From the NCBI GenBank assembly GCA_947489705.1, contig CANLEQ010000009.1, forward strand, positions 1-64,000: a DNA stretch of 64,000 nt, in the 5' to 3' direction. Source of the DNA: an uncultured Paracoccaceae bacterium. GTDB taxonomy: Bacteria > Pseudomonadota > Alphaproteobacteria > Rhodobacterales > Rhodobacteraceae. Position numbers and translations under genes: made by a program. This document shows, piece by piece, positions 5,628 through 30,291 of this stretch (position 1 is the first letter of the stretch; each line of letters opens with the position of its first letter). Under the pieces are notes generated by a model. It was not told the origin of the DNA. It worked only from the letters and a program-made list of their open reading frames with translations, and searched no databases.

Positions 5628-6296
5628 ATGGCACGGCAGACCGACCCCTCGACGGGCGAGAGGGAGGGGGGCGCGCTGTCGGACAGGGTCCGGCGGCAGC
5701 TGACCGAACTGATCCGGAGCCGCGCGCTGCCCGGCGGCCAGGTCATCATCGAGCTGCGGCTGGCCGAACGGCTGGGCGTGTCGCGCACGCCGCTGCGCGA
5801 GGCGCTGCAGCGTCTCGAGGGCGAAGGCATGATCGAGAAGAATTCGGGGCGGTCCTACATGGTGCGCCGCGTCGATCTTCGCGAATACATGCAAAGTCTG
5901 AAGATGCGCCTCATCCTCGAGCCCGAGGCGGCGGCCGCGGCGGCCGCGCCCGGCGCCATTCCCGCAGAGGATCTCGCCCGGATCCGGGACGAGGTCATAG
6001 CGCTGAACACGAAGGACCGCCGCCAGACGCAGGCCCATTGGGATGCGGATGACAGGCTTCACCGGCTGTTCGGATCGGCCTGCGGCAATCAGGTGATGTT
6101 CGACACGATCGAACGGCTGCGGGTGACGACGCGGCTTTTCGAGGTGACGGAGCACAGCCAGCGCATTGCCGACGACCATGTCGAGCACATGGCGATCCTC
6201 GACGCGTTGGAGGATCACGATCCCGACGCGGCGCGGCTGGCGGTGGCGACGCATCTTCGCAGCCTGATCGCCTATTCGCTGGAAAAGATAAGCTAG
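5628..6296 (+). CDS. GntR-family regulator (FCD domain)
   Basis: This 222-residue transcription factor has an N-terminal winged helix-turn-helix (about residues 18-82, including L-A-E-R-L-G-V-S-R-T-P-L-R-E-A-L) and an all-helical C-terminal FCD ligand domain with the usual Asp/His metal-ligand positions (D-A-D-D-R-L-H and later E-H). FCD proteins usually repress catabolic genes and release DNA on binding an acid or amino-acid-like effector. It lies six bases after the hydantoinase gene and probably controls that promoter, where a perfect palindrome lies at 4195-4208. Its stop codon shares the CTAG tetranucleotide with the stop of the convergent DapA-family gene. Confidence 0.9.
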   Translation: MARQTDPSTGEREGGALSDRVRRQLTELIRSRALPGGQVIIELRLAERLGVSRTPLREALQRLEGEGMIEKNSGRSYMVRRVDLREYMQSLKMRLILEPEAAAAAAAPGAIPAEDLARIRDEVIALNTKDRRQTQAHWDADDRLHRLFGSACGNQVMFDTIERLRVTTRLFEVTEHSQRIADDHVEHMAILDALEDHDPDAARLAVATHLRSLIAYSLEKIS

Positions 6297-7285
6297 CCTG
6301 CGGCCGGTGCCGGATCGCCCGCCCCGGGTGCCGCGACCACGGCGGCCAGTCGCGCGCCTTCTTCGTCGCTGAGCTGCCGCATCGGCGGGCGCATCCGGGC
6401 CGAGCCGATACGCCCGAGCGCGTGCAACCCCGACTTCAGCCGCGCATTCGCCAGATAGGGCGGCTCGCGCCGGTAGATCTCGCGCGCCAGGGGATAGAGG
6501 CGGTCATGCGCGCGGCGCGCCTGGCTCCAATCGCCGCGCCGCGCCGCGTCGTAGAGCCCGGTCACGAGCTCGGGAAACAGCGCCGCGAGCGACACCTGGC
6601 TGCCATCGGTGCCGATCTGGTAGCAGGCGAGAAGATGTTCGTCGCCCGAGGCCATCACCGACACGCCCGGACGCTCCGACCGGACCCGGCGCAGAAGCTC
6701 CTCGTAGGCCGAGACCTCCCAGGCGCCTTCCTTGATCCCGGCCACCTCGTCGATGGTGCAGAGCCGCGCGATGAGGTCGGGGGAATAGGACAGCCGCCCC
6801 CAGGCCAGGGGCGCCTTGTAGAGGATGAGGGGCAACGCGGCCGCCGTCGCCACCGCGCGATGGTGGCAAAGGGCGATTTCGGCATCGACCCCCATCGCCC
6901 AGTGGGTCGGCGGAAACAGCAGGATGGCATCCGCACCGTCCTCGGCCGCCGCCTCCGCCTCGCGGATCGCGGCTTGCGTGCTTTCGGCGGTGATGCCGGC
7001 GGTCAGGTGGCACGTCTCGGGCACCTCCGAGCGCGCGATCCGCAACACCCGGCGCCGCTCGTCGAGATCCATCATCGCCCCCTCGCCGGCATGGCCGTTG
7101 ATCAGCAATCCGGCGATCCCGTCGGCCCGCGCGACCGATCCGACATGGCGGGCAAGGCCGGGCTCGTCGATCTCGCCCGTCTCGGTGAGCGGGCAGATCG
7201 TCGCGGCATGCACGCCGGTCAGCCTGTCGTTGTCGAGCGCCACGGGCGTGCCGGTCGCCGCGACGATGCGTCGGTCAGTCATCAT
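6293..7285 (-). CDS. DapA/NAL-family lyase (Module A)
   Basis: This 330-residue TIM-barrel enzyme belongs to the dihydrodipicolinate synthase / N-acetylneuraminate lyase family, which forms a Schiff base between a lysine and a 2-oxo acid. The catalytic lysine is K185 in V-A-G-I-K-E-G and the helper tyrosine is Y156 in L-Y-K-A-P. The usual G-x-T-G-E loop is replaced by G-H-A-G-E-G, so the substrate carboxylate pocket differs from true DapA. It is the last gene of a four-gene operon with an HcnABC-type dehydrogenase, and its ATGATG start overlaps the stop of the upstream gene. In hydroxyproline catabolism a member of this family deaminates a pyrroline product of a related dehydrogenase, so a similar role here is plausible but unproven. 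Confidence 0.85.
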   Translation of the reverse strand: MMTDRRIVAATGTPVALDNDRLTGVHAATICPLTETGEIDEPGLARHVGSVARADGIAGLLINGHAGEGAMMDLDERRRVLRIARSEVPETCHLTAGITAESTQAAIREAEAAAEDGADAILLFPPTHWAMGVDAEIALCHHRAVATAAALPLILYKAPLAWGRLSYSPDLIARLCTIDEVAGIKEGAWEVSAYEELLRRVRSERPGVSVMASGDEHLLACYQIGTDGSQVSLAALFPELVTGLYDAARRGDWSQARRAHDRLYPLAREIYRREPPYLANARLKSGLHALGRIGSARMRPPMRQLSDEEGARLAAVVAAPGAGDPAPAAG

Positions 7286-8418
7286 GGGAGAGGTCCATTC
7301 CGGGGGTCAGGGGCATCGGGCAGCAGGCGGTCGATCGGAAAGAGCGGCATCTCGGGCTCGGCGCCGAGGATTGCCTGGGCGAGGCATCTCCCGATATAGG
7401 GGGCGGAGGTATAGCCCGAATGGACCGATCCGCTGACCCATGCGCCGGGATGGCCGGGCACCGGCCCGACCGCCGGGAGCGCGTCGGCGGTCTCGGCCTC
7501 GAAGCCGGTCCAGCTCCGCACGATCCGGCCGTTCGCGAGCGCGGGGAGCGCATGCACGGCGAGGCGCGCATTGCCGACCGTGCTGTCGTGGGTGGTGACG
7601 TGGCGCCCGGTCTCCCGCGTTCCCTCGCCCTGCCAGCCGCCGCCGATCACGACGGTGCCGTGCGGGAACTGCTTGAGCGACAGCAGGCCGCTGGCGATCC
7701 CCAGCACGGTGCGCATGACGGGCGCCATGCGTTCGGTCACCGAAAGCTGGTTGACGAGCGTCCTGATCGGCAGGTGCACGCCCAGCCAGGCCAGCATCGG
7801 TTCGATCCAGACACCGCCGGTGAAGACGACCTGCGCCGCATGGATCGTCTCGGACGCCGTGTTGATCTCGAAGCCGCCGGCCGCGTCGCGCACGCCCGTG
7901 ACGGGGGTGTATTCGCGGATCCGCACGCCCGCCTCCCGCAGGGCACGGCGATAGGCGAGACCCGTGAGATAGGCGTTGGCGTAGCCGTCGATCGGGCAAT
8001 GGCTCGCCATGCGGACGCCCGGGCCGATCCCGGGCTCGATCCCGCGCGCCTCGTCCGGCGTGACGAGACGTATGGGCGCCCCCGCCGCGCTGCGCGCCTC
8101 GGCGCGTTCGGTCAGAAGGCGCTCCTCCGCCTCGGTGAAGGCGAGGGACAGGCCGTCGCAGGCGACCACGCCGACATCGTGTCCGAGCCAGTCCGGCGCC
8201 TTTACCCACATCTCGTGCGCCTTCAGCGCATAGGGGATCAGGGCCGCGCGCGTCATCTGCATCGTGAGGGTGCCGGCATTCGATCCCGACGCCTCGCGCG
8301 CCAGCGCGCCGCGTTCGAGAAGGATCACGTCCATCCCGCCCCGCGCCGCGAAGAGCGCGACGCTGCCGCCGTGGATGCCGCCGCCGATCACCGCGAGATC
8401 GTAGTGCCGGCCCTTCAC
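7282..8418 (-). CDS. FAD-dependent oxidoreductase, HcnC/DadA-type subunit (Module A)
   Basis: This 378-residue flavoprotein of the D-amino-acid-oxidase (DAO) superfamily would be the catalytic amine-oxidising subunit of a three-component dehydrogenase. The Rossmann FAD motif V-I-G-G-G-I-H-G-G-S lies at the N-terminus, followed by A-S-G-S-N-A-G-T and the C-terminal flavin-binding G-S-V-H-S-G-Y-T-S-A-P segment. The GTG start at 8418 overlaps the upstream TGA as GTGA. The open frame continues upstream but only as a shadow of the next gene. Related trimers oxidise glycine, D-hydroxyproline or opines at a C-N bond and pass electrons to the membrane chain. The substrate is not deducible. Confidence 0.87.
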   Translation of the reverse strand: MKGRHYDLAVIGGGIHGGSVALFAARGGMDVILLERGALAREASGSNAGTLTMQMTRAALIPYALKAHEMWVKAPDWLGHDVGVVACDGLSLAFTEAEERLLTERAEARSAAGAPIRLVTPDEARGIEPGIGPGVRMASHCPIDGYANAYLTGLAYRRALREAGVRIREYTPVTGVRDAAGGFEINTASETIHAAQVVFTGGVWIEPMLAWLGVHLPIRTLVNQLSVTERMAPVMRTVLGIASGLLSLKQFPHGTVVIGGGWQGEGTRETGRHVTTHDSTVGNARLAVHALPALANGRIVRSWTGFEAETADALPAVGPVPGHPGAWVSGSVHSGYTSAPYIGRCLAQAILGAEPEMPLFPIDRLLPDAPDPRNGPLP

Positions 8419-9818
8419 AGCGGCGCCGCCTTCGGCACCGGGATGTCGTCGTAGTCGTAGGTTCCGATCAGCGCCCCGAGTTCCACCGGGCGCACCGGCG
8501 CGCGCGGTGTGGGCCGCAGATCGCCCAAGGCACCGGTCTCGCGCCGCATCAGATGCGCCGCCGCGTGGAGGCACATGCGTCCCTGGCATGGCCCCATCCC
8601 GAGACGGGTGAAGTGCTTTGCCTGCCCGAGGTCGCGCGCCCCGTCGGCGATCGCCGCGCGAAACTCTCCGGCCGTCACGTCCTCGCACCGGCAGAGGATC
8701 GTTTGGTCCGCGATCCGGTCGAGGCTCGCCTCGGGCATCCGCATGAGCCGGCAGGACGCGTCGGCGAAACGCGCGAGGCGCCATAGCTTTCGGCGGGGCG
8801 CGCGGCTCGCCGCATCGAAGGCCGGATCGGTGAGCGCGCCGTGGTCGCGGGCCGCGGCGAGACCCGCGATCCTTCCGGCGGCCGCGGCGCTCTGGGCACC
8901 ACGGATGCCGGCCCCGTCGCCCGCGACATAGAGGCCCGGCACCGAGCTGCGCCGGTCGGCGTCGCAGACCGCGCGAGGCCCCTGAAGGGGGTCGCTTTCC
9001 TGCGCCGCGCCGAGCAGCCGGAGCAGCTCGTCCGCCGGGGCCAGCCCGTCGCCGACATAGAGGGTATCGACGTCGAACCGCCGCTCCGCGCCGCCGTCGA
9101 GGGGTCGGACGACGATTCCGCGCACCGTATCGGTGCCGTCGACCCCGACGATCTCGGATCGCGCCCGGTAAGGCACCCGCGCCGCCGCGAGACGACCGAT
9201 CCATCCCAGCCCCCTCGCCATCGCGGCGGGATCCCGTGCGAACCCCGGCGCCGCGCGCGACCAGTCCCGGATGCCGTTCCGGTCGATCACGACGACGGGC
9301 CGCAGCCCGAGCGCGATCGCCTTCGACGCCACCGCGACCAGAAGCGGCCCCTGCCCCGCCACGGCGATCCGGCGACCCGGCAGCGTTCCTTGCGATTTCA
9401 TCAGAGTCGTCGCGGCGGCAAGGCCGAAGACGCCCGGAACCGTCCAGCCGGGAAACGGCGCCACATGCTCGGTCGCGCCCGTGGCCAGCACGACGCGTGG
9501 CGCCGAGAGCAACGACGCGCCGTCCGGGCCGACGATCGACAGCGTGAAGCCCGGCCGCGCGTCCCAGACCTGCGCGCCCTGAAGGATCGTGGCGCCGCTG
9601 GCGGCGAGCCGCGCGCGCAGGTCGTCGCCGCCCCGGCGATCGGCATCGGGCCCGGAGCCCCGGGCGGAGGCCGTGCGCGGCGCGCGCCAGACCTGGCCGC
9701 CCGGCGCCGGGCCCTCGTCCACCAGGCAGGTGGCGAGCCCCGCGCGCGCCGCGGCGATCGCCGCCTCGCCGCCGGCGGGACCGGCGCCGACCACGACGAG
9801 ATCGAACGCCGTCCTCAC
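8415..9818 (-). CDS. NAD(P)/FAD oxidoreductase with C-terminal BFD-like [2Fe-2S] domain, HcnB-type (Module A)
   Basis: This 467-residue protein carries a GxGxxG FAD motif near residue 12 (V-V-G-A-G-P-A-G-G), a second nucleotide-binding fold (V-A-G-Q-G-P-L-L-V-A), and a C-terminal bacterioferritin-associated-ferredoxin-like cysteine set: C-R-C-E-D near residue 390 and G-P-C-Q-G-R-M-C about 33 residues later. This is the architecture of HcnB, opine-oxidase subunit A and the alpha subunit of D-hydroxyproline dehydrogenase. It probably relays electrons between the DAO-type subunit and an acceptor. Its start overlaps the HcnA-type stop by four bases, so stoichiometric translation is likely. Confidence 0.88.
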   Translation of the reverse strand: MRTAFDLVVVGAGPAGGEAAIAAARAGLATCLVDEGPAPGGQVWRAPRTASARGSGPDADRRGGDDLRARLAASGATILQGAQVWDARPGFTLSIVGPDGASLLSAPRVVLATGATEHVAPFPGWTVPGVFGLAAATTLMKSQGTLPGRRIAVAGQGPLLVAVASKAIALGLRPVVVIDRNGIRDWSRAAPGFARDPAAMARGLGWIGRLAAARVPYRARSEIVGVDGTDTVRGIVVRPLDGGAERRFDVDTLYVGDGLAPADELLRLLGAAQESDPLQGPRAVCDADRRSSVPGLYVAGDGAGIRGAQSAAAAGRIAGLAAARDHGALTDPAFDAASRAPRRKLWRLARFADASCRLMRMPEASLDRIADQTILCRCEDVTAGEFRAAIADGARDLGQAKHFTRLGMGPCQGRMCLHAAAHLMRRETGALGDLRPTPRAPVRPVELGALIGTYDYDDIPVPKAAPL

Positions 9819-10195: not shown

Positions 10196-10246
10196 AATTG
10201 CGTGCTGACGGCGCAATCAAAAACCGGCAACCAACAGGAGTGAGAG

Positions 10247-11065
10247 ATGAGAGACATTCTTAAGCGCACCATGCTGATGGGAGCGGCGGTCGCCCTCGCC
10301 GCGACCTTCGGCATCTCCGGTCAGGCCCAGGCACGATCGCTGGACGAGATCCTGTCCTCGGGAACCCTCAAGGTCGGGGTGAACCCGACATTGCCGCCGC
10401 TCGGGACCTATGACGAAACCAACCAGATCGCCGGCTTCGACGTCGATTTCTCGCAGGCCATCGCCGACATGCTCGGCGTCGAGCTGGAGATCGTGCAGGT
10501 CGGCTCGCCCGACCGGATCCCGTTCGTGGCCAGCGGCAGGATCGACTACGTGATGGGGGCGATGACCCGCAATCCCGAGCGCGCGAAGGTCATCGACTTC
10601 ACCGTCCCCGTCCATACCGAGGTCTTCGGCGTGCTCACGACCGAGGACAAGGGATTCACCGACTGGAAGGAGCTCGACACGTCCGATGTCACGATGGTGC
10701 AGGTGCGCGGCTCGACCCCGGTGCAGTTCATCGCCGACAACCTGCCGGAGGCCGAGGTTCTGCTGCTCGACAATTACCCCGACGTGATCCGTGCGCTGGC
10801 CCAGGGGCGCGGCGATGCCATGCTCGACGTGGTGGATTTCGTGGGCGAGCACATGAACAAGCACGACACTGCCTGGAAGGTCGTCGAGACCCCGGTCGAC
10901 ATCTATTACTGCTCGCTCGGCGTGGCGAAGAACAGCGCGGGCCTGAAGGACTGGCTCAATATCGCGATCTACGAGCTGCATCGCGACGGCGTCGTCGACG
11001 AGCTCTGGGAGAAGTGGTTCGAGCGCCCGATGATCCAGGATGTCGAGGCCTCTCCCTGGTTCTGA
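10247..11065 (+). CDS. Polar amino-acid ABC transporter, substrate-binding protein (Module A)
   Basis: This 272-residue periplasmic binding protein of family 3 begins with an N-terminal signal peptide (cationic R-D-I-L-K-R, hydrophobic core, cleavage after Q-A-Q-A). The mature N-terminus follows the family pattern G-T-L-K-V-G-V-N-P, then G-F-D-V-D and the R-I-D-Y-V-M-G-A-M-T segment that ligates the amino-acid backbone. It would capture the pathway substrate, a polar amino acid or derivative, and deliver it to the two permeases downstream. An AGGAG ribosome binding site precedes the start. A stable stem-loop follows the stop, which may favour excess binding protein over permease. Confidence 0.92.
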   Translation: MRDILKRTMLMGAAVALAATFGISGQAQARSLDEILSSGTLKVGVNPTLPPLGTYDETNQIAGFDVDFSQAIADMLGVELEIVQVGSPDRIPFVASGRIDYVMGAMTRNPERAKVIDFTVPVHTEVFGVLTTEDKGFTDWKELDTSDVTMVQVRGSTPVQFIADNLPEAEVLLLDNYPDVIRALAQGRGDAMLDVVDFVGEHMNKHDTAWKVVETPVDIYYCSLGVAKNSAGLKDWLNIAIYELHRDGVVDELWEKWFERPMIQDVEASPWF

Positions 11066-11084
11066 CGCCCTCGTCGACCTGAAG

Positions 11085-11106
11085 GGGCGGGCGACGGCGC
11101 CCGCCC
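11085..11106 (+). terminator. Intra-operon stem-loop between binding-protein and permease genes
   Basis: GGGCGGGCG (11085-11093), loop ACGG and CGCCCGCCC (11098-11106) form a perfect 9-bp GC stem. No T-run follows, so it is better read as an mRNA 3'-end stabiliser or partial attenuator than a full terminator. Confidence 0.5.
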
Positions 11107-11125
11107 GAGCGCGCGGAGATCACGC

Positions 11126-11800
11126 ATGGATTACACGTTCCAGTACGGGCAGGTCTGGCCCTACCTGCCCTATCTGCTGTCCGGCGCGTGGCTGAGCCTG
11201 CAGATCGCGTTCCTCGCCTTCTGCGGCGGGTTGCTGATCGGCACGGCCTGTGCCGCCATGCGGTCCTTCGGCAAGGGGCCGCTCCTGATCGTCGTCAACG
11301 CCTATGTCATCTTCTTCGTGAACACGCCGCAACTGGTGCAGATCTATTTCCTCTACTTCGCGCTTCCGGATATGGGGATCTACCTCTCGTCCTACATGGC
11401 GGTGCTGATCGGCATGACCCTGAATGCGGGGGCCTACCTGACAGAGATCCAGCGCGCGGGCTTCGAATCGCGCCGCCGGAGCGAGATGGAGGCCGCGGAG
11501 GTCCTGGGCTTTTCGCGGTTGCAGCAGGTCCGCTACGTGATCCTGCCGCATGTGGCCAAGGTGCTGTTTCCGCCGCTCTCGAACCACTACATCCTGATGA
11601 CGCTGGGCACGTCCATGGCCGCGATCTTCGGCGTCGAGGAGCTGACCGGCCGCGCCCTGAACGTCAATTCCCAGACGTTCCGGTCGCTCGAGGTCTTCTC
11701 GGTCGTGGCCCTGATATACATCGCCGTCACCCTCGTGGCGTCCGTGCTTCTCGCGCTGCTGGGGCGATACGGCTTCCGCGCGAAGATGCGGGTGGTGTGA
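11126..11800 (+). CDS. Polar amino-acid ABC transporter permease 1 (Module A)
   Basis: This is a 224-residue inner-membrane permease of the HisM/GlnP family with about five transmembrane helices. The cytoplasmic coupling loop is seen as E-A-A-E-V-L-G-F-S-R-L-Q-Q-V-R-Y-V-I-L-P-H (roughly residues 125-146), the EAA motif that contacts the ATPase. A family-typical F-F-V-N-T-P-Q-L-V-Q-I-Y segment precedes it. The stop overlaps the next permease start as TGATG, suggesting translational coupling and a heterodimeric permease. Confidence 0.92.
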   Translation: MDYTFQYGQVWPYLPYLLSGAWLSLQIAFLAFCGGLLIGTACAAMRSFGKGPLLIVVNAYVIFFVNTPQLVQIYFLYFALPDMGIYLSSYMAVLIGMTLNAGAYLTEIQRAGFESRRRSEMEAAEVLGFSRLQQVRYVILPHVAKVLFPPLSNHYILMTLGTSMAAIFGVEELTGRALNVNSQTFRSLEVFSVVALIYIAVTLVASVLLALLGRYGFRAKMRVV

Positions 11801-12448
11801 TGGAGCTCTTCGACCTTCTGACCTATTACAACGTGCTGTTCCTGGCCCAGGACGCCCTGACCACGCTGGCGCTTTCGGCCTTCGGCTGCGTTCTGGGCGG
11901 CATCCTCGGCACCGCGCTGGCGGTCGTGCGGCTGACGCGCGGAAAGCTGACGCTGCCGTTGCGCGGGCTCGCCCTCGTCTTCACCGAGTTCTTCCGCCGG
12001 GTGCCGTTCCTCGTCACGCTGTTCCTCTGCTTCTTCGCGTTCCAGTTCGGCGGCCTCGAGGTCAGTACCCTGACGGTGGGCTGCGTCACCGTGGTGCTGA
12101 TCGGCACCGCGTTCCTCGCCGAGATCGTGCGCGCGGGCCTGCAATCGGTCCATCCGAACCAGTGGCACGCGGCCGAGGCGATGAACTTCTCGCTCCTGCA
12201 GACGATCCGCTACGTGATCCTGCCGCAGGCCTGGACCGTGATCCTGCCGCCCGCCTTCGGCTTCTTCATCCTCTTCATCAAGGACAGCGCGCTCGCCTCG
12301 CAGATCGGCGTGGTGGAGCTCACCTATGTGGGCAAGGTGCTCAACAACCGCGGATTCTCGGCAGGGGTCACCTTCGGCACGATCCTCGTCATCTATTTCG
12401 CAATCTCGTTCCCCCTGGCGCGGCTCGGCGCGAAACTGGAGAAGAAAC

Positions 12449-12471
<23 letters not shown>
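11800..12471 (+). CDS. Polar amino-acid ABC transporter permease 2 (Module A)
   Basis: This 223-residue permease is homologous to its upstream neighbour. It carries F-F-R-R-V-P-F-L-V-T near residue 65 and the EAA coupling loop E-A-M-N-F-S-L-L-Q-T-I-R-Y-V-I-L-P-Q near 125-145. It shares its ATG with the TGA of permease 1 and overlaps the ATPase start at its 3' end by 23 bases. Together the two permeases form the membrane channel of the importer. Module B has only one permease, so the two transporters differ in architecture. Confidence 0.92.
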
Positions 12472-13186
<715 letters not shown>

Positions 13187-14095
13187 CCGCGCGGCGCTGC
13201 CGGGCGCCGACCTGCTGCGGGGGGCGATGGACAATCACGTCCATGCCTGCCCGCATATCAACGCGCGGTCGGTCGATGTTTTCCAGGCGGTCGAACTGGC
13301 CGCGGAGGCCGGCATGACCGCGATCGGCCTCATGGACAATTTCGCCAATTCCTCGGGGCTCGCGGCGCTGGCGAACCGCCAGCTCGGCCATCTCGGGGTG
13401 GAGGTGTTCGGGGGCCTGATCATGGAGCCCGCCGCGGGCGGGATCCATGCGGGCCTGGTGCGGACCGCGCTCGGGCTCGGCTACGGCGATCCGCGCGACG
13501 GCGCGCGGTTCATCTCGCTGCCCACGCATCACACCCGTCATACCGCCCTGCAGGAAGGCCGCGGGGCGGATTACGTCGCGGGATGCCTCCACATACCCGA
13601 ACGCGGCCCCCTGCCCGATCCGCTGCCCGAAATCCTCGACCTGATCGCGACCGCGGATGTCGTGCTTAATGCGGGCCATCTGTCGGGCGACGAGGCGCTC
13701 CGCCTGACCGAGGTCGCGAGGGCGGCAGGGGTCGACCGCATCCTCGTGCCCGCCAACCATTTCGACGCCGCGACCGTCACCGCCCTTTGCAACGCCGGTG
13801 CGCATGTCGAGTTCTCGTTCTTCCTCGTCTCGCACGCGACCCAGCCGGGGCTGACCCATGTGGACGCGGAACGCCACGCGGTGCCGGGTGCGACGGGGCC
13901 GGGGATCGCGGAACTGATCGCGGCCGCCGATCCCGGGCGGGTCGTGCTGTCGTCGGATTGCGGCGTGTTCCTGCTGCCGCCCCCGCCCGAAGGGCTTCGG
14001 CAGTTCCTCCTGCTGCTGGAAACCTGCGGAGTGGATCGGGCCGACCTGCGACGTATGGTGTCCGAGACGCCCGCCCGTCTCTTCGGCGTCGGGGC

Positions 14096-15127
14096 GTGAG
14101 CGGATACGTCCAGACCATTACGGGCCGGCGGGCCCCCGGGGATCTCGGCCTCACGCTGATGCACGAGCATGTGCTTTGCGACGTGACGCCGCCCGACCTC
14201 GCGGCGCAGGGGCTGCCGCGCACGCCAGTGACACTGATGAACAGCCACGCGATGCGCTATGCCTGGACCGGGCATTACGGCAATCACATCCTCGACGACA
14301 CCGCCGTCCTGGCCGACGAATTGCGCGATTTCCGCGCCTCGGGCGGCGGCACGATCGTGGAGCTGACCATCAGGGGCATCGCCCCGGATCCTGCCGGTCT
14401 CGCGCGATTGTCCGCGGCGGCCGATGTCGCGATCGTGGCCGGCACCGGCTTTTATACCCACGCGTTCTGCGGCGATCTTCTGGAGGCCCTCTCGACCGAC
14501 GCGATGGCGGAGGCGATGATCGGCGATCTCAGCGACGGGTTCGACGGCACCGGCCTGCGCGCCGGGATCATCGGCGAGATCGGCGTCTCCGATCCCTGGC
14601 ACCCGGACGAGCGGCGCGCCATGACGGCCGCGGCACTGGCGCAGGTCGAGACGGGCGCGGCGATCAGCGTTCATCCCGGCCGCGATCCCGCCTCGCCGGC
14701 CCGGATCGTCGCGCATCTGGTGAAGCATGGCGTTGATCCGGCGCGCATCGTCATCGGCCATCTCGACCGCACCTTCACGACGCCGGACCAGGCCCTCAGG
14801 CTTGCCGCGGAGGGCTGCGTGCTCGAATGGGACTTCTTCGGAATCGAAAGCAGCTATTATCCCTTCGCCGATATCGACATGCCGAACGACGCGCTCCGGC
14901 TTCGCATGATCCGCGGCCTGCTCGACCGCGGCCATGACGGGCAGGTCGTGATCTCGCACGACATCTGCACGCAGACGCGTCTGCGGCGCGGGGGCGGCCA
15001 CGGCTACGGGCATATTCCCGATGCCGTGCGTCCGATGATGCGCCGTCGCGATTTCTCGGAGGGCGAGATCACCCGGATCCTCGTCGAGACGCCGAGGCGC
15101 CTTCTGACCCTGCCCGGCCCGGCGTGA
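14096..15127 (+). CDS. Phosphotriesterase-like (PTE/PHP) hydrolase, Module A copy
   Basis: This 343-residue amidohydrolase belongs to the phosphotriesterase family, whose natural members are mostly lactonases or amidases. Metal ligands are H23-E-H25, E160 in I-I-G-E-I-G, H192 in S-V-H-P-G, H221 in I-G-H-L-D and D288 in S-H-D-I-C. The bridging residue is glutamate, not the carboxylated lysine of classical phosphotriesterase; glutamate also bridges in E. coli phosphotriesterase homology protein. Organophosphate hydrolysis is therefore not expected. The GTG start at 14096 overlaps the upstream TGA. A close paralogue with the same ligands is at 25436-26464 in Module B. Confidence 0.85.
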   Translation: MSGYVQTITGRRAPGDLGLTLMHEHVLCDVTPPDLAAQGLPRTPVTLMNSHAMRYAWTGHYGNHILDDTAVLADELRDFRASGGGTIVELTIRGIAPDPAGLARLSAAADVAIVAGTGFYTHAFCGDLLEALSTDAMAEAMIGDLSDGFDGTGLRAGIIGEIGVSDPWHPDERRAMTAAALAQVETGAAISVHPGRDPASPARIVAHLVKHGVDPARIVIGHLDRTFTTPDQALRLAAEGCVLEWDFFGIESSYYPFADIDMPNDALRLRMIRGLLDRGHDGQVVISHDICTQTRLRRGGGHGYGHIPDAVRPMMRRRDFSEGEITRILVETPRRLLTLPGPA

Positions 15128-15293: not shown

Positions 15294-15983
15294 ATGACTG
15301 AAACGGGTGTGACGCCGATGAACGATGCCAAACCGGTTCGCCAGGCTTCGGCGGAATGGGTCGCGGCCCAGCTGCGGGGCCGGATCATCCGGGGCGAACT
15401 GCTGCCCGGCGCGCGGATCGTCGAACGCACGCTTTCGGCCGAGCTGCGCGTCTCGCGGACCCCGGTTCGCGAAGCGCTGAAGCTGCTGCGCGCCGACGGG
15501 CTGGTGGAGATCGCGATGCATCGCGGCGCGCAGGTCACCCCATACACCGCGCAGGAGGCCGAGCATCTCTTCGACCTGATCGCCGTGATCGAGGGGCTGG
15601 CGGCCGAACGGCTGGTGGCAAGGCTCGACGCGCCGATGCTCGAGCGGCTCGAAGCGATGCACGCGCGCATGAAGGCGCAATACGCGGCGCGCGACGCCAC
15701 CGCCTATTTCGACACGAATACGTCCATTCACGCTTTCATCATCGACGGAACCGAGAACCCGCACCTGATCGAAAGCCATCGCCGGGTGATGATCCGGGCC
15801 CAGAGGGGGCGCTTCATGGCGATCCTCGATACCGACAGGTGGTCTCAGGCGATGGCGGAGCACGACGAGTTGATGGTCGCGTTGCGCGCGCGCGATGCCG
15901 CTTCGGCCGCCGAGATCTGGCAACGGCATCTGCGCCATACCGGCGAGACGCTGGCGGAGGTGCTGCGCGACCGCCAGCCCTGA
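15294..15983 (+). CDS. GntR-family regulator (FCD domain)
   Basis: This regulator of about 229 residues has an N-terminal winged helix (R-G-R-I-I-R-G-E-L-L-P-G and then L-R-V-S-R-T-P-V-R-E-A-L) and an FCD ligand domain starting near residue 85 (F-D-L-I-A-V-I-E-G-L-A-A-E-R). The ATG at 15294 and another at 15318 are both possible. Neither has a strong ribosome binding site, and the upstream frame extension lacks family similarity. It sits 166 bp after Module A and 195 bp before the racemase operon, so it could regulate either. The GTATAC site at 10188 and the ATGGCATGCCAT pair at 16055-16090 are candidate operators. Confidence 0.87.
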   Translation: MTETGVTPMNDAKPVRQASAEWVAAQLRGRIIRGELLPGARIVERTLSAELRVSRTPVREALKLLRADGLVEIAMHRGAQVTPYTAQEAEHLFDLIAVIEGLAAERLVARLDAPMLERLEAMHARMKAQYAARDATAYFDTNTSIHAFIIDGTENPHLIESHRRVMIRAQRGRFMAILDTDRWSQAMAEHDELMVALRARDAASAAEIWQRHLRHTGETLAEVLRDRQP

Positions 15984-16054
15984 GCGCCGGCCGAGGCGCG
16001 CCAGAAAATTCGGCACCGCCCCGCATCATGCGCCCATGATATAGGCGCGCGCGA

Positions 16055-16178: not shown

Positions 16179-16931
16179 ATGCACATCCTGCTGGTCAACC
16201 CCAACATGACGAGGTCCATGACGGACCGCATGCACGAGATCGCCGTCTCGGTCGCGCCCTCCGGGGCGCGCGTGACGGCGCTGACCGCGAAAACGGGGTT
16301 TCCTTACATCGCGTCGAAGGCGGAGGCGCAGATCGCGGGCGCGCTGGCCTACGATCTCATCGCCGAACATGCCGAGGATGCCGATGCGGCGATCATCGCG
16401 GCCTTCGGCGATCCGGGTCTCGCGGGGGCACGCGAATTGTTCGACTTTCCCGTCGTGGGCATGGCCGAGGCGTCGCTGATGAGTGCGGCGATGCTGGGGC
16501 CGCGGTTCTCGATCGTGACCTTCTCGCCGGTGATGCGGCGGTGGTACGAGGATTCGGTCAGGGATGCGGGGCTTCTGGGACGGTTCGCGGGCATTCGCAC
16601 TCCGGACCTGCATCGCAGCGATCTGGGCGATCTGGGATCCGCGATGCACGACCAGCTTCTGGAGCTCTGCAACGCCGCCGTGGTCGAGGACGGCGCCGAC
16701 GTGGTGATCCTCGGCGGCGCGCCGCTGGCGGGCGTCGCGCAGGATATCGAGGCCGAAATCGACGCCCTCGTGGTCGACCCGATCTCCGCCGCGACGGCGC
16801 AGGCCGTGGCGCTCCTCAGCATCACCGGGGCGGACGGTTTTGGCCGCCGGTCCACCAAACCCATTCCCAAGGCGTCCGTCGGGCTTTCGGACAAGCTTGC
16901 CGGGCATTTCTCGCACGAACACCTGCCATGA
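16179..16931 (+). CDS. Asp/Glu/hydantoin racemase-family protein lacking both catalytic cysteines
   Basis: This 250-residue protein has the fold of the aspartate/glutamate/hydantoin racemase superfamily, shown by L-L-V-N-P-N-M-T at the N-terminus and A-F-G-D-P-G-L-A-G-A-R-E at residues 75-86. In characterised hydantoin racemases two cysteines act as acid and base. Here the positions read A75 (A-A-F-G-D-P-G) and G180 (I-L-G-G-A-P-L-A-G), so both are absent. Ordinary cysteine-based racemisation is therefore unlikely, and a lyase, isomerase or binding role is possible. It heads an operon with a TRAP carrier and an amidohydrolase, 88 bp after a tandem operator. Confidence 0.75.
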   Translation: MHILLVNPNMTRSMTDRMHEIAVSVAPSGARVTALTAKTGFPYIASKAEAQIAGALAYDLIAEHAEDADAAIIAAFGDPGLAGARELFDFPVVGMAEASLMSAAMLGPRFSIVTFSPVMRRWYEDSVRDAGLLGRFAGIRTPDLHRSDLGDLGSAMHDQLLELCNAAVVEDGADVVILGGAPLAGVAQDIEAEIDALVVDPISAATAQAVALLSITGADGFGRRSTKPIPKASVGLSDKLAGHFSHEHLP

Positions 16932-19885: not shown

Positions 19886-19890
19886 GGACC

Positions 19891-21255
19891 ATGCCGATGA
19901 TTCCCGACATCCTGATCGACGGCGCAGCCGTGCTGACCTCCGATCCCGCGCGGCCCTACCTGCGCAGGGCCTGGATCGAGGTTGCCGGCGGGCGCATCGC
20001 CTCGGTCTCCGAGACGCGGCCCGAGCGGATTGCCGAGGGGACACGCGTGTTGCCCGGAGACGGTCGTCTCGTCACGCCCGGTTTCGTCAACATCCACACC
20101 CACGCGATCCTGTCGATGGTGCGCGGCGTCGCCGAGGATATGGGCTTCGCGCCCGCCTATACGCCGGGCGTCCCGCATGGCCACGACGTGACCCCCGACG
20201 AGGCGCGCGCGCTGTCGCGGCTGGGCGCGCTCGACGCGCTCTGCTTCGGCTCGACCCTGATCAACGACAGCTTCACCCAGCAGGATACCGCGCTCGAGGC
20301 GATGGCCGAGACCGGCATCCGCGCCTGGGGCTGCGGCCGGATCCACGATGTCGACTTTTCCCGCGTGCATCTGGGTGAATGGCGCTACGACACAGCGATC
20401 GGAGAGCGGACCCTGGGGTTGGCCGCCGACCTGATCGACCGGTTCCACGACCCCGATGGGCTGCGTACCGGCGTCGTGCTGGCCCCGCATGCGCCAGATA
20501 CGTGCAGCCCCGACCTGCTTCGGCTGGTGCGCGAGATGCGGGACGCGCGGGGTCTGCGGATCAACACCCATGTGGCGCAGAGCCGGGTCGAGGTGGACTT
20601 CATCCGCGAGCGCGACGGCATGTCGCCGCCGGAACTGCTCGACAGCGTCGGACTTCTCGACGACCGGCTGATCGCGGCACATTGCATCCATGTCGATCAG
20701 GGCGACATCGACAGGCTCGGCCGCGCGGGGGCCCATCTCGCGCATATCGCGAAGGGCAACCAGACCCACGGACACACCGCGCCGACGCAACGGCTGCGCG
20801 CGGCGGGAATGCGGCTGGGCCTGTCGACCGACAACATGCATGCCGACATGGTCGAGACGATGCGGTGGGCGCTCGCCACGGGGCGGCTGCAGACCGGCAA
20901 AGTCGATGCCGCGTGGCAACCCGAGACGGTGTTCGAGGCGGCCACGATAGGCGGCGCGCGCGCCCTTGGGCTCGACAGCGAGATCGGGTCGATCGAGGTC
21001 GGAAAACGCGCGGATCTGGTCGTCTTCGACATGAACCGCCCGCATCTTCGGCCGCGTACCAACGATCTGGGGGTGCTGGTCCATACCGCGCAGGGCCGCG
21101 ACGTGGACATGGTGCTCGTGGATGGGGAGGTGGTCGTCTCCGACGGGCGGCCGACCCGCGTCGATCTCGCCGCGGCGCTGGCGGCGGCCGAAACCGCCGC
21201 CGCGGCGCTCTGGACGCGGGCGCGCGACGAGCATTCCGCGATGCAGGCGCGCTAG
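19891..21255 (+). CDS. ATZ/TRZ-type amidohydrolase
   Basis: This 454-residue cytoplasmic metal-dependent hydrolase or deaminase belongs to the chlorohydrolase/deaminase branch. The mononuclear metal site is seen as N-I-H-T-H near residue 70, N-T-H-V-A-Q near 227, A-A-H-C-I-H near 262 and S-T-D-N near 312. The C-terminal G-S-I-E-V-G-K-R-A-D-L-V-V-F closes the small beta-sandwich. Family members remove amino or halide groups from heterocycles such as triazines, guanine or adenosine derivatives. The glutamate that usually follows the H-V-A motif is Q here (H-V-A-Q-S). It is last in the racemase-TRAP operon and convergent with DUF3830 across a small CCGCCCGGGCGG palindrome at 21256-21267. Confidence 0.85.
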   Translation: MPMIPDILIDGAAVLTSDPARPYLRRAWIEVAGGRIASVSETRPERIAEGTRVLPGDGRLVTPGFVNIHTHAILSMVRGVAEDMGFAPAYTPGVPHGHDVTPDEARALSRLGALDALCFGSTLINDSFTQQDTALEAMAETGIRAWGCGRIHDVDFSRVHLGEWRYDTAIGERTLGLAADLIDRFHDPDGLRTGVVLAPHAPDTCSPDLLRLVREMRDARGLRINTHVAQSRVEVDFIRERDGMSPPELLDSVGLLDDRLIAAHCIHVDQGDIDRLGRAGAHLAHIAKGNQTHGHTAPTQRLRAAGMRLGLSTDNMHADMVETMRWALATGRLQTGKVDAAWQPETVFEAATIGGARALGLDSEIGSIEVGKRADLVVFDMNRPHLRPRTNDLGVLVHTAQGRDVDMVLVDGEVVVSDGRPTRVDLAAALAAAETAAAALWTRARDEHSAMQAR

Positions 21256-21269: not shown

Positions 21270-21683
21270 TCAGGCGAAGTCGAACCGGATGTCGTGCGCG
21301 CCCTTCCAGAGCACCGAATTGCCGAGCGTCATCAGGTTCTCGAGCCCCGAGGTCAGCGTGACGAAATGGTTGCCGGCGAGCTGTCCCATCTTGGAGGCGA
21401 ACGCCACGCCGCCATAGGCCAGCAGGATCTCGGTTTCCGAGATGCCGCCGGGATAGAGGATGATCTGGCCCGGGGCCGGGTGCGATGTGTGGTTCTCGTA
21501 GCCCACGCCGAAATCGTGGTCGCCGAGCGGGATCCAGACGCCCTCGCCGCTCCAGCGGACATGCACGATTTGGCCCGTATAGGGCATCGCGGCGCGGAAC
21601 GCGGCGCAGGTCCTGGGCGCGGCCTCCTCTTCCAGTCTGGCGTCGAAGGTGAAGGGGCCTGCGGTAACGATGAGCTTGGTCAT
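21270..21683 (-). CDS. DUF3830 cyclophilin-like protein (Module B)
   Basis: This 137-residue protein resembles the DUF3830 family, small proteins with a cyclophilin-like beta-barrel. Recognisable stretches are A-P-R-T-C-A-A-F near residue 22, H-P-A-P-G-Q-I-I-L-Y-P-G-G near 68 and the C-terminal G-N-H-F-V-T-L. No catalytic function is established. In genomes this family often sits beside amidohydrolase-type catabolic genes. Here it is the last gene of the Module B operon and its ATG overlaps the stop of the fused dehydrogenase, so co-expression is nearly certain. It could be an isomerase, a small-ligand binding protein or a subunit of the upstream enzyme. Confidence 0.75.
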   Translation of the reverse strand: MTKLIVTAGPFTFDARLEEEAAPRTCAAFRAAMPYTGQIVHVRWSGEGVWIPLGDHDFGVGYENHTSHPAPGQIILYPGGISETEILLAYGGVAFASKMGQLAGNHFVTLTSGLENLMTLGNSVLWKGAHDIRFDFA

Positions 21684-24542: not shown

Positions 24543-25439
24543 TCAGCCCATCTCCGGCTTGAGCAATCCCACCGCCTCGAGGGCCGCGTGGAGCATGGGT
24601 CGATCGGCATCCGGCAGGGGCAGCCGCGGCGCCCGCGGGGCACCGGTCTCCATCCCCATCAGCGAGAGCGCCGCCTTGGTGGCCGAGACGTAGCGGTGCC
24701 CGCCGACCAGCCGGATCACCGGCAGGATGTCGCGGTAGAGCGCACGGGCCGCGTCGTAATCCTCGCGCTCCACGGTGAGCTCGAAAAGCCGCGCGCAGGG
24801 GCCGGGCAGGATGTTCGACGGTACCGCCACCCAACCGTCGGCGCCGCTCACGAAGCTTTCGAAACCCATAATGCCGCCGAAGACGCTCATCCGGTCGCCG
24901 CAGAAGGCGTTGATGTCGCGCACGCGGGTCACGTCCATCGTGCTTTCCTTGATGTAGTCGACCCCGTCGATCCGGCTCAGCCGCGCGACGATGTCGGGCG
25001 TCAGATCCACGTTGGCCGTGGCGGGGTTGTTGTAGATCATGATCGGCAGCGAGGTCGCCTCGGCGATGCGTGCGAAATGCCGATGAAGCTCGTCCTCGGT
25101 CGGGGTCGAATAGAAGGGCGGGATGATCATCACCCCGTCCGCCCCGACGCCCTCGGCCATGCGGCAATTCTCGATCACGTCCTCGGTCCGCTCGGCCGCG
25201 GCGCCCACCAGGACGGGCACGCGGCCCGCCGCGGCCTCGACCGTCGCGCGCGCGATCATCTCGCGCTCGGCGGCGGTCAGCGACAGGAATTCCCCGGTCG
25301 AGCCCAGCGGGATCAGACCGTGGATCCCCTCGCGGACCTGCCAGTCGGTGAACCGCGCATGGGCGGCCGGATCGACCGCGCCCGTTGCGTCGTAGGCCGT
25401 GACCATGACCGTGTAGGTGCCGCGGAATTTTCGCGTCAT
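24543..25439 (-). CDS. DapA-family lyase (Module B)
   Basis: This 298-residue TIM-barrel Schiff-base enzyme has the typical family length. It retains the canonical G-S-T-G-E-F loop at residues 47-52, Tyr136 in I-Y-N-N-P and catalytic Lys164 in Y-I-K-E-S. It is thus closer to standard DapA/NAL enzymes than its Module A counterpart. It lies between the phosphotriesterase-like gene (ATGA overlap) and the fused dehydrogenase (4-bp gap). True lysine-biosynthetic DapA is improbable in this catabolic operon. A 2-oxo-acid aldolase, dehydratase or pyrroline-carboxylate deaminase role is more likely. Confidence 0.85.
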   Translation of the reverse strand: MTRKFRGTYTVMVTAYDATGAVDPAAHARFTDWQVREGIHGLIPLGSTGEFLSLTAAEREMIARATVEAAAGRVPVLVGAAAERTEDVIENCRMAEGVGADGVMIIPPFYSTPTEDELHRHFARIAEATSLPIMIYNNPATANVDLTPDIVARLSRIDGVDYIKESTMDVTRVRDINAFCGDRMSVFGGIMGFESFVSGADGWVAVPSNILPGPCARLFELTVEREDYDAARALYRDILPVIRLVGGHRYVSATKAALSLMGMETGAPRAPRLPLPDADRPMLHAALEAVGLLKPEMG

Positions 25440-26465: not shown

Positions 26466-27287
26466 TCAGAGGATCTTTGACAGGAAGAGCCGCGTATGCT
26501 CGCTTTCGGGGGCGTCGAAGAACGCATCGGGGGGCGCGTCCTCCACGATCTCGCCGCCATGCATCAGCAGGACACGGTCGGCGGCGGCGCGGGCAAAGCC
26601 CATTTCGTGGGTCACCACGATCATCGTCATGCCCCCGTCCGAGAGCCCGATCATGACGTCGAGCACTTCCGAGATCATCTCGGGATCGAGCGCCGAGGTC
26701 GGCTCGTCGAAGAGCATCACACGCGGCCGCATGGCGAGGGCGCGGGCGATCGCGACGCGCTGCTGCTGGCCGCCCGAAAGCTGCGAGGGATAGGCGTCCG
26801 CCTTGTCGGGAAGGCCCACCTTGTCGAGCAGCTCTCGTGCATGCCGCTCGGCCTCGGCCGCCTCCTCGCCGCTGATCCTGACGGGCGCGAGCGTGATGTT
26901 GTGCAGGACGTTGAGGTGGGGAAAGAGGTTGAAGGACTGGAACACCATGCCCATGTCACGGCGCTGTCGCGCGACCTTGCGGTCGGGCAACTCGGTCCGC
27001 CGGCCCAGCCGGTCGACCCGATACCCCATCAGGTGTCCACAGGCATTGATCGTGCCGCCCTCGATCGTCTCGAGATGGTCGATGCAGCGCAGCAATGTCG
27101 ACTTTCCGGATCCCGATCGGCCGGCGATCACCACCACCTCGCCCTGACGTACCGTGAGGCTGACCTCGCGCAGCACGACGTTCGAGCCGAACTGCTTGAC
27201 CACCTTGTCGCAGATCACGATCGGCGGACCGAGGGTCCGGCCGGACCTGGGCGACGTCGCCGGTTTCTCCATCAGCTTCGTCTCCAT
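26466..27287 (-). CDS. Polar amino-acid ABC transporter ATPase (Module B)
   Basis: This 273-residue GlnQ-type ATPase has a 20-residue N-terminal extension. Walker A is G-R-S-G-S-G-K-S-T near residue 59, the signature L-S-G-G-Q-Q-Q-R-V-A-I lies near 172, Walker B reads V-M-L-F-D-E-P-T-S-A-L-D, and the switch is T-H-E-M. The ATG at 27287 is chosen because AGGA lies upstream. A second ATG at 27272 is possible. The Walker A second residue is R where the Module A copy has P-S, so the two ATPases are diverged rather than recent copies. Confidence 0.92.
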   Translation of the reverse strand: METKLMEKPATSPRSGRTLGPPIVICDKVVKQFGSNVVLREVSLTVRQGEVVVIAGRSGSGKSTLLRCIDHLETIEGGTINACGHLMGYRVDRLGRRTELPDRKVARQRRDMGMVFQSFNLFPHLNVLHNITLAPVRISGEEAAEAERHARELLDKVGLPDKADAYPSQLSGGQQQRVAIARALAMRPRVMLFDEPTSALDPEMISEVLDVMIGLSDGGMTMIVVTHEMGFARAAADRVLLMHGGEIVEDAPPDAFFDAPESEHTRLFLSKIL

Positions 27288-28943: not shown

Positions 28944-28995
28944 TTCGCGATGATCCTCTGTTGAGTGAAGCTGCGGCCGTTATCCGGCCCCTTGG

Positions 28996-30291
28996 TCATG
29001 CGGTCGGGCGGCCGGCCCGGCCGCTGCACCAGTCGCGGGTGATGCGCCTCGTGACCTCGACCATCGCGAGGAAATCCGCGACGTCGATCCACTCGTCGTG
29101 GCGGTCGTTCTGGCTCAGATCGCCGCCGAGACAGCCGAGGCCGACGCACGGGATCCCGGCCTCGACCGCCGGGTTGCGGATGTCGCTTGAGGTGTGCATC
29201 GCGTTGACGAAGGGCGCCGCGCCGGTGACGGCGCCGACCGCGGCGGAGGCGGTGCGATAGAGCGGATGATCCTCGTCGACTTCGGCCCCCGTCGTGCCGG
29301 CGACCCAGGTGATCTCGGGCGGATGGTCGGCCAGCCACGGATCGGCAACCGCGGCCGCGGCCACCGCGCCCTCGATCTCGCGCTTGATGTCGTCGAGCGT
29401 CTCGCCCGGCGGAAAGGAGAGGGCGCCGCCGAGCTCCGCGACCGGATGGATGCGGGAGAACTTCTTCATCTCGCCGCAGGACATGCGCGAGACATGGAGG
29501 TTCGTCGCACGCCCGACCACCGCCTCGATCTTCGGATGGCGGATGCGGGCGGCGCGATCCGTGGCGAGCGCATCGAGCGCCGACTTGATCGCGAAGGCCT
29601 TGTCGACCGGATTATGGGCCTGGTGGCTGAACGCGGTATGGCCGGGCTCGGTCGTGTCCGGCCCCCGCCCCGTCACCTTGATCCGGAATTCGAGCTGGCC
29701 CGAGGCCAGCGCCTTGATCTCGCGCATGCCGACCCCCGACTCGGCCGGATGGAGGTAGAGCGACGCATCCGCGCGCAGCCCGTCATGGAGCAAAGCGGCG
29801 ACACCGCGCGCGTACCGCTTGGACGGTGTGGAGGCGAAGATCGCCCGGCCCATCGGTCGGCCCTCGGCGGCCACGGCCTCGATGGCGAGGAGAGCGGCGG
29901 CACAGCCCGCGAGGTCGTCCGCCACGCCCCAGCCGTAAAGACGTCCATTCTCGATCTCGCCCGCGAAGGGGTCGTGGCGCCAGCTTTCGGTATTCGCGAC
30001 AGGCTCGCCGTCCGGATGGGCGAAGATCAGCAGGCTCGGCAGAGAGGGGTCGTGCCCGATGCTGCCCACGACGGCCCTGCGCGGTTCGGGATTGCGGGCG
30101 AAATCCTGCGCGAACTCGCCGATCACCGGAACGTCCGACGGGGTGTAGTCGTGGTCGCGGACATCGCATCCCGCTTCGCGAAGCCGCGCTGCGATCACCG
30201 CCTGGACGGCGGCCTCGCCCTGCCTCTGGGCGGCGACGAGGGTTTGCAGCACCTCGATCGCGGCATCGGCACGGTCGTCCCCTGCGATCAT
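28996..30291 (-). CDS. M20-family metallo-amidohydrolase (Module B)
   Basis: This 431-residue member of the M20/ArgE/DapE-type hydrolases cleaves amide bonds of N-acyl amino acids or small peptides, using two zinc ions. Metal-ligand regions are I-F-A-H-P-D-G near residue 90, G-W-G-V-A-D-D near 120 and the C-terminal A-M-H-T-S-S-D-I-R. The usual glutamate pair after the central aspartate is not obvious, so the active site departs from the textbook M20 pattern. The ATG at 30291 is preferred over a longer frame, because GGAGA precedes it and the longer frame would run through the palindromic operator at 30317-30326. It heads the eight-gene Module B operon. Confidence 0.82.
   Translation of the reverse strand: MIAGDDRADAAIEVLQTLVAAQRQGEAAVQAVIAARLREAGCDVRDHDYTPSDVPVIGEFAQDFARNPEPRRAVVGSIGHDPSLPSLLIFAHPDGEPVANTESWRHDPFAGEIENGRLYGWGVADDLAGCAAALLAIEAVAAEGRPMGRAIFASTPSKRYARGVAALLHDGLRADASLYLHPAESGVGMREIKALASGQLEFRIKVTGRGPDTTEPGHTAFSHQAHNPVDKAFAIKSALDALATDRAARIRHPKIEAVVGRATNLHVSRMSCGEMKKFSRIHPVAELGGALSFPPGETLDDIKREIEGAVAAAAVADPWLADHPPEITWVAGTTGAEVDEDHPLYRTASAAVGAVTGAAPFVNAMHTSSDIRNPAVEAGIPCVGLGCLGGDLSQNDRHDEWIDVADFLAMVEVTRRITRDWCSGRAGRPTA

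Follow-up and report, generated by a model that had tools for sequence, protein, structure and literature searches.

The closest known kind of system to the gene sets described here is L-hydroxyproline catabolism. These gene sets, hereinafter modules A and B, lie in a 64,000 nt stretch of DNA (the window) from an uncultured Paracoccaceae bacterium (contig CANLEQ010000009.1, assembly GCA_947489705.1, positions 1-64,000 of the forward strand), and each of them combines an ABC importer, an HcnABC-type flavin/[2Fe-2S] dehydrogenase, a DapA-fold Schiff-base lyase and a phosphotriesterase (PTE)-like hydrolase. The L-hydroxyproline pathway, like the modules, includes an amino acid importer. As far as the published descriptions go, it also shares with them an HcnABC-type dehydrogenase, a DapA-family enzyme and a GntR-type regulator (PMC4575208; PMC6608401), and the three-component nature of the flavin/[2Fe-2S] dehydrogenase is recognizable here from its domains and cysteines. 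The pathway and the modules differ in that: (i) the genome encodes no member of its epimerase family; (ii) the DapA proteins of the modules belong to other clades; and (iii) the modules add a D-hydantoinase (HydA), PTE and M20 hydrolases, and DUF3830 and DUF6282 proteins, while the dehydrogenase of module B is fused. An original prediction, made from the sequence alone, had proposed an undescribed pathway; this claim has to be narrowed, as an HcnABC-type dehydrogenase had already been described in the literature together with a DapA-family enzyme for L-hydroxyproline.

Other described systems resemble the modules in part. Opine dehydrogenases (OdhABC, NoxAB/OoxAB) have the same subunit make-up and ABC import, but the modules possess a DapA-fold enzyme and hydrolases, and show low identity to the plasmid oxidoreductases. 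Hydrogen cyanide synthase (HcnABC) has the same domain make-up as the dehydrogenases of the modules; these, in contrast, are found in a catabolic cluster context and, in module B, as one polypeptide. The hyu clusters (racemase, hydantoinase, carbamoylase) have in common with this locus a D-hydantoinase and a hydantoin-racemase-family protein, and the M20 protein of module B might act as a carbamoylase or deacylase. Unlike the hyu clusters, the modules seem to contain no recognized carbamoylase and add a dedicated dehydrogenase, lyase and importer. Finally, PTER, a hydrolase of N-acetyltaurine and N-acetyl-beta-alanine, shares with the PTEs of the window the metal ligands, including the bridging glutamate, and two substrate arginines. 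The PTEs of the window are, however, bacterial, have Cys instead of His300, and are clustered with a dehydrogenase and a lyase.

Gene Content of the Modules

Families were identified by Pfam and NCBIfam profile scans of the frames in the window, applying the NCBIfam equivalog cut-offs. The following features were recognized:

4221..5621, plus strand: D-hydantoinase/dihydropyrimidinase (HydA); TIGR02033 533.5 bits (cut-off 393.25), NF009941 722 bits (cut-off 647)
5628..6296, plus strand: GntR/FCD regulator; Pfam GntR and FCD
6293..7285, minus strand: module A DapA-fold Schiff-base lyase, GHAGE loop; PF00701 135 bits, Schiff-base Lys
7282..8418, minus strand: module A HcnC-like FAD (DAO) subunit; PF01266 171 bits, clade
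8415..9818, minus strand: module A HcnB-like subunit, FAD and BFD [2Fe-2S]; PF07992, PF04324, PF17806; C376/C378/C411/C416
9815..10165, minus strand: module A HcnA-like [2Fe-2S] subunit; PF13510; C61/C66/C69/C81
10247..11065, plus strand: module A solute-binding protein, family 3; PF00497 (SBP_bac_3)
11126..11800, plus strand: module A ABC permease 1; PF00528 (BPD_transp_1) 64.8 bits
11800..12471, plus strand: module A ABC permease 2; PF00528 56.5 bits
12449..13186, plus strand: module A ABC ATPase, start uncertain; PF00005 (ABC_tran) 131 bits
13155..14099 (true start may be 13227), plus strand: DUF6282 protein, likely of amidohydrolase type; PF19799 141 bits, weak Amidohydro_2
14096..15127, plus strand: module A PTE-like hydrolase (PTER-like); PF02126 226 bits, best PDB match 9efa (1.2e-70)
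15294..15983, plus strand: GntR/FCD regulator; Pfam
16179..16931, plus strand: member of the Asp/Glu/hydantoin racemase family, putative module member and possible HydA partner; PF01177 154 bits, matches in 7 of the 20 HydA-seeded stretches
21270..21683, minus strand: DUF3830 protein; PF12903 119 bits
21680..24538, minus strand: module B HcnA-HcnB-HcnC fusion, 952 aa; Fer2_4 2-80, Pyr_redox_2 102-415, Fer2_BFD 466-518, DAO 576-928
24543..25439, minus strand: module B DapA-fold Schiff-base lyase, GSTGE loop; PF00701 198 bits
25436..26464, minus strand: module B PTE-like hydrolase (PTER-like); PF02126 189 bits, best PDB match 9efa (4.8e-65)
26466..27287, minus strand: module B ABC ATPase; PF00005 121 bits
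27293..28021, minus strand: module B ABC permease, single; PF00528 81.9 bits
28098..28943, minus strand: module B solute-binding protein, family 3; PF00497
28996..30291, minus strand: M20 hydrolase, ArgE/DapE type; PF01546 (Peptidase_M20)

Module A is divergent, with DapA, HcnC, HcnB and HcnA on the minus strand and the solute-binding protein, two permeases, ATPase, DUF6282 and PTE on the plus strand; the HydA gene lies at its end, two genes before the DapA gene. Module B is encoded entirely on the minus strand in the order M20, solute-binding protein, permease, ATPase, PTE, DapA, oxidoreductase and DUF3830, and its oxidoreductase is a single open frame of 952 residues whose parts run HcnA, HcnB, HcnC. 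Pfam confirms each of the families that the original prediction had placed in both modules (ABC importer, HcnABC, DapA-fold, PTE-like), together with the extra DUF6282 of A and the extra DUF3830 and M20 of B. The differences that it had pointed out, namely two permeases in A versus one in B and HAGE versus STGE, are likewise seen, the latter as the GHAGE and GSTGE loops. Its gene set, however, overlooked HydA (4221-5621), and the fusion of HcnABC in module B went unnoticed.

Both sets of [2Fe-2S] cysteines are retained in A and B. The catalytic Schiff-base lysine of the DapA-fold proteins, in the motif (I/V/C)KE, is present in 10 of 10 aligned rows for A and in 82 of 82 for B. In DHDPS, the arginine that follows YNxP in the DapA of this same genome is a substrate-binding residue; it is absent from both DapA-fold proteins. 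These score 115 (A) and 181 (B) bits against TIGR00674 (DapA), under its cut-off of 206 and, in consequence of both facts, a true DHDPS role is ruled out.

Conservation and Distribution

Relatives of the fusion were searched for in genome contigs with a profile of seven fusions: at least 572 were found and the best 80 were retained, so that these loci (numbered with L; genomes with G) were picked by fusion similarity and are not a random sample. The presence of each family was judged by thresholds of our own setting, and 60 of the 80 loci are at least 19 kb long. In 75 of the 80 relatives, the fusion is encoded by a single frame that matches over at least 880 residues; four of the remaining five are in loci shorter than 12 kb. 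The 60 long loci contain DapA of the module B group (57), a solute-binding protein of the B type (49), GntR (47), HydA (34), DUF3830 (31), M20 (25) and PTE (15); in all 80, the counts are 71 for DapA, 41 for HydA, 35 for DUF3830, 32 for M20 and 21 for PTE. Thirteen loci (10 of the 80 fusion-seeded and 3 of 11 PTE-seeded) reproduce the eight genes of module B in exactly the same order, among them those of Tropicimonas, Roseisalinus, Jannaschia, Mameliella, Silicimonas and Granulosicoccus. Annotated plasmids of Aureimonas, Azospirillum and Agrobacterium vitis carry a HydA version of the cluster, with DUF3830, and uncultured Pelagibacteraceae records (L085, L087) hold the fusion and DapA, the second one HydA as well. 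DUF3830 has a mean column identity of 80% over 23 rows, which suggests a catalytic or tightly constrained role; its predicted model has a pLDDT of 87.1 and its profile gave a weak PDB match to 3kop (1.3e-5). In L069, the stretch 10238-16854 beside a complete module B encodes an additional family-3 ABC importer, similar in type to that of module A, along with an SDR, an MR_MLE protein and a HypD-type protein.

Module A was found in ten loci across Alpha-, Beta- and Gammaproteobacteria. Its core (DapA, HcnC, HcnB, HcnA and, divergently, solute-binding protein, permease, permease, ATPase) is present in L040, L066, L085, L105, L125, L126, L136, L174 and L180, while L135, a contig of 5.3 kb, has only the enzyme half of it. 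Three of its proteins were searched for in genomes of the class (385) and family (248), the own genome being included in the genome counts. HcnC of module A, at E 1e-75, matched in 8 class genomes and 5 family genomes; the five non-own matches above 400 bits all lie in module A (L105, L125, L126, L135, L136), while the six weaker loci (L137-L142) are other clusters, with distant DapA proteins in five of them. The PTE of module A matched in 12 family genomes. Of its 11 non-own matches, six exceed 270 bits and all but one of them fall in A or B, whereas none of the five that score less than 190 bits does; one of the latter five is on a contig of 6.5 kb. DUF6282, whose His, Asp and Glu are invariant over 16 rows, matched in 18 class genomes; of its 19 non-own places, the close matches, in G303 and G373, both belong to module A, whereas the other 17 have no DapA of the A or B group, one of them (L119) having a distant HcnC-like match. 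Plasmids of Pantoea (L174) and Burkholderia cenocepacia (L180) carry module A plus HydA, among the 40 of 160 plasmid records listed.

The other kind of cluster (L137-L142, L175) has the HcnABC nearest to that of module A, mostly distant DapA proteins (up to four per locus) and, in some cases, an SDR, with no match to the hydroxyproline epimerase. In addition, DapA and HcnC of module A are separated by a gene for a class III aminotransferase in L040:15098-16561, L126:11388-12833 and L135:990-3140, and an aminotransferase of class V type adjoins module A in L174.

Co-occurrence in other genomes had been put forward as a check of the original prediction, and the families do recur together elsewhere, with their order kept across families and classes. 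The gene sets A and B are, very probably, real conserved functional units. Their association is a different matter. DapA of module A and its transporter occur within 10 kb of the fusion in 4 of the 80 loci (L040, L066, L085, L093); in L085, module A with DUF6282 adjoins the fusion and its DapA, while the pairing in L093 is incomplete, the separate HcnABC not being seen. On the other hand, the fusion was found in 0 of 10 non-own genomes with a match to HcnC of module A at E 1e-75 (five of which have module A), in a search without a positive control. The eleventh such genome (G224), outside that search, carries module B (L108) and a weaker HcnC match on another contig. Some 20 kb of further flanks (both sides in G083, G303 and G286; one side in G373) gave no fusion or DapA match. 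Hence, A and B as obligate partners are unsupported, as A occurs without B, and the word parallel, used in the original prediction, calls for caution. The modules look like independent units that have been brought together several times.

Separate Assembly of the Two Modules

Trees were built by quick searches, with SH-aLRT as the only support and midpoint rooting, and several long branches were flagged in them. In the HcnC tree, module A forms one clade (9 rows; support 100), closer to other HcnABC clusters than to B, and the HcnC parts of the fusions (25 rows) lie on another side. In the DapA tree, the A side (11 rows; 99) is apart from B, and the HypD-type protein of Sinorhizobium meliloti pSymB is distant from both. 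Since HcnC and DapA of A and B thus fall in different clades, the oxidoreductase and the lyase were recruited separately. The PTEs make up a single 30-row group, which also includes PTEs from HydA-type clusters; within it, A (4 rows; 96) and B (18 rows; 100) separate into two clades, which share a nearer ancestor. The sister-clade relationship that the original prediction had proposed to check is thus not observed for HcnC and DapA. Together with the 26-47% identity between counterparts of A and B, the trees rule out a recent tandem duplication and support repeated assembly, one of the two options given in that prediction.

Hydantoinase and Other Hydrolases

The HydA of the window passes two NCBIfam cut-offs (TIGR02033, NF009941) and is 70% identical to that of an Aureimonas plasmid cluster of B type. 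The 12 top-scoring other HydA proteins (715-783 bits) are in B-type clusters, most of the loci compared being fusion-seeded, and three at 681-700 bits are outside them. HydA adjoins module A in L125, L136, L174 and L180, at 362-466 bits.

The closest solved relative of both PTEs is 9efa, labelled as a phosphotriesterase-related protein (PTER being an N-acyl amidohydrolase). Residue roles were taken from the mouse PTER residues named in PMC11374699 and PMC13311154. Both PTEs keep the metal ligands HxH, E (the bridging Glu), H, H and D, as well as the equivalents of Arg204 and Arg233 (HPGR, HMDRT). The best NCBIfam match of the M20 protein (NF005306, 144 bits) is below its cut-off of 376, and the protein is below the cut-offs of the 25 of 34 matches listed.

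At least one of HydA, PTE and M20 is present in 50 of the 60 long fusion loci. HydA and PTE occur together in 4 of the 60, HydA without PTE in 30, PTE without HydA in 11 and neither in 15, that is, together less often than expected (Fisher p 0.014, kinship uncorrected). As for module A, PTE adjoins it in L105, L125 and L126, and HydA or PTE adjoins it in 6 of 9 full cassettes; in L040 and L066, PTE is on the side of module B, and L085 lacks both enzymes. In both modules, hydantoinase and PTE act as alternative hydrolases, to which B adds M20, and in the fusion loci HydA and PTE tend to replace each other. That such an exchange is shared by two unrelated oxidoreductase-lyase sets is the principal reason why both hydrolases may be read as unmasking steps on related compounds.

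Proposed Function and Alternative Explanations

Starting from the observed gene content, conserved gene order, clades and retained catalytic residues, the following scheme can be proposed: (i) the family-3 ABC transporter of each module would import a hydantoin-, N-carbamoyl- or N-acyl-masked amino acid; (ii) the hydantoin-racemase-family protein may interconvert enantiomers ahead of HydA; (iii) a hydrolase would take off the mask, HydA by opening a hydantoin or dihydropyrimidine-type ring, and the PTER-like PTE, plus M20 in B, by stripping the N-carbamoyl or N-acyl group; (iv) the flavin/[2Fe-2S] dehydrogenase of HcnABC type, with its three subunits in A and its single fused chain in B, would oxidize the C-N bond of the amino or imino acid thus released; and (v) the DapA-fold Schiff-base enzyme, which is devoid of the DHDPS arginine, would cleave or deaminate a 2-oxo or imino acid. 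What we infer are the order of the steps, the chemistry of the mask, the stereochemistry and the substrate, as well as what DUF3830 and DUF6282 do. That the two separately assembled modules unmask, oxidize and cleave N-masked amino acids has an even chance of being right. From the original prediction, the steps of import, C-N oxidation, lyase action and amide hydrolysis find general support; lactone hydrolysis has little, given that the PTEs have their nearest solved relative in a PTER-type protein. A more specific proposal can be put forward tentatively, and is possible rather than probable: A and B would be convergent solutions for one undescribed pathway, fed by D-hydantoinases of this branch, whose native task would be to open the ring of a naturally occurring hydantoin or dihydropyrimidine-type derivative of an amino acid; the product would then be processed by the single-chain HcnABC dehydrogenase and the DapA-fold lyase, with DUF3830 as a further catalyst and the PTER-like enzymes as an alternative entry.

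In favour of the scheme, some neighbours recall ureide, carbamoyl or D-amino acid chemistry: carbamate kinase, ureidoglycolate lyase and D-amino-acid transaminase in L059, an isochorismatase-family frame directly after the fusion in L099, and the C-terminal domain of allophanate hydrolase in L100. They are single loci with no background count, which weighs against the scheme, as do several other points. HydA matches at E 1e-140 in 60 of the 385 class genomes; among its 20 best non-own places, the fusion is found in none and a B-type DapA in one (L157). HydA mostly serves elsewhere, and this control rules it out as a specific marker of the modules. Variovorax HydA clusters have no separate decarbamoylase among the families sought and, in consequence, an N-carbamoyl intermediate is not demanded. 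Furthermore, 10 of the 60 long fusion loci have none of HydA, PTE and M20; His300 of PTER is replaced by Cys in the PTEs of the window (SHDICT); the best PDB matches of both binding proteins are reconstructed ancestral or general amino-acid binders; and the scheme does not explain the aminotransferases beside module A in L040, L126, L135 and L174.

Catabolism of the L-hydroxyproline type is an unlikely alternative in spite of the fact that, for this amino acid, a three-subunit flavin/[2Fe-2S] dehydrogenase is described as the partner of a DapA-family deaminase (PMC6608401; PMC4575208). A clean separation from it is also opposed by L069, where a close relative of the S. meliloti HypD-type protein (519 bits) and an MR_MLE protein adjoin module B. 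However, PF05544 (proline racemase/hydroxyproline epimerase) has 0 matches in the genome of the window, the same search being positive in 3 of 14 control genomes. The DapA-fold protein of S. meliloti pSymB, presumably HypD, with a PF05544 protein about 10 kb away, scores 38 bits to DapA of module B, against 243-509 for the B group, and has its own long branch. Moreover, a search of 167 loci at E 1e-10 with the pSymB epimerase matched none of the other 166, and the published pathway has no use for HydA, PTE or M20.

According to another explanation, which is rather unlikely, the modules would degrade N-acyl omega-amino acids of the N-acetyl-beta-alanine or N-acetyltaurine type: PTE would deacylate them, an aminotransferase and an aldehyde dehydrogenase would follow, and HcnABC and DapA would serve a linked amino acid. 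This agrees with the PTEs being nearest to a PTER-type protein, with the presence within module A of a class III aminotransferase (L040, L126 and L135), and with the finding of such an aminotransferase and of an aldehyde dehydrogenase close to related PTEs of S. meliloti pSymA and Rhizobium NXC24. Nevertheless, neither enzyme is found among the Pfam-scanned frames of 4221-33924, and the better-conserved HcnABC, DapA and HydA are left unexplained.

The catabolism of opines or N-(carboxyalkyl) amino acids, in which HcnABC would cleave a secondary amine and the hydrolases would act on side products, is quite unlikely. Flavin-containing opine dehydrogenases are described as belonging to the same three-subunit family, with putative ABC importers (PMC4575208), and HcnC of module A is about 32-34% identical to Agrobacterium plasmid oxidoreductases (among 40 of 160 records listed). 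Yet its identity to other module A members is 55-62%, far above that to these plasmid proteins, which are not individually identified as Nox or Oox, and the octopine operon, as described in that source, has an ornithine cyclodeaminase, with no DapA-fold enzyme or hydantoinase named (PMC4575208). Ectoine degradation, considered from ring chemistry and a weak match of the module B binding protein to 2q88, is not favored.

Lastly, a chance meeting of common catabolic families in a gene-dense region is extremely improbable: DHDPS-family and ABC genes are indeed common (the genome has five DHDPS-family matches), but gene order and orientation recur across families and classes, and close DUF6282 (2 of 19 non-own) and high-scoring PTE matches (5 of 6 above 270 bits) fall in A or B, while distant ones do not.

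Neighbouring Genes

A BCCT family transporter (1004-2620) and a MatE transporter (2655-4019) lie upstream of HydA. Between A and B (17077-21255, plus strand), there are genes for a TRAP transporter (DctP, DctQ, DctM) and for a TRZ/ATZ-type amidohydrolase (19891-21255, plus strand) which is below the NCBIfam cut-offs. Beyond module B (30595-33196, minus strand), a kinase and a RuBisCO-like protein resemble OiaK and OiaX, of isoapionate breakdown, with 522 and 403 bits, under the NCBIfam cut-off of 700; a GntR regulator accompanies the pair, and TRAP transporter genes diverge from 34071.

Significance

The natural function of hydantoinases, which are enzymes of industrial use, was still unclear as of 2012, according to a paper on them (PMC3546935). 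In a literature search of limited coverage, no paper was found linking a hydantoinase to a gene cluster with a DHDPS-family enzyme, a sarcosine oxidase and an ABC transporter, nor any paper on DUF3830 or DUF6282. Here, the hydantoinase is one interchangeable hydrolase of two conserved sets which include an importer, a dehydrogenase and a lyase and, placed among them, its natural role becomes testable by ligand and product screens. The gene sets also give a context to DUF3830, DUF6282 and the bacterial PTER-like proteins. A and B are genuine gene sets, both conserved and convergent, that vary known kinds of catabolism and bear concretely on the question of hydantoinase function, and the presence of such genes in uncultured Pelagibacteraceae records (L085, L087) means that their substrate may be common in the sea.

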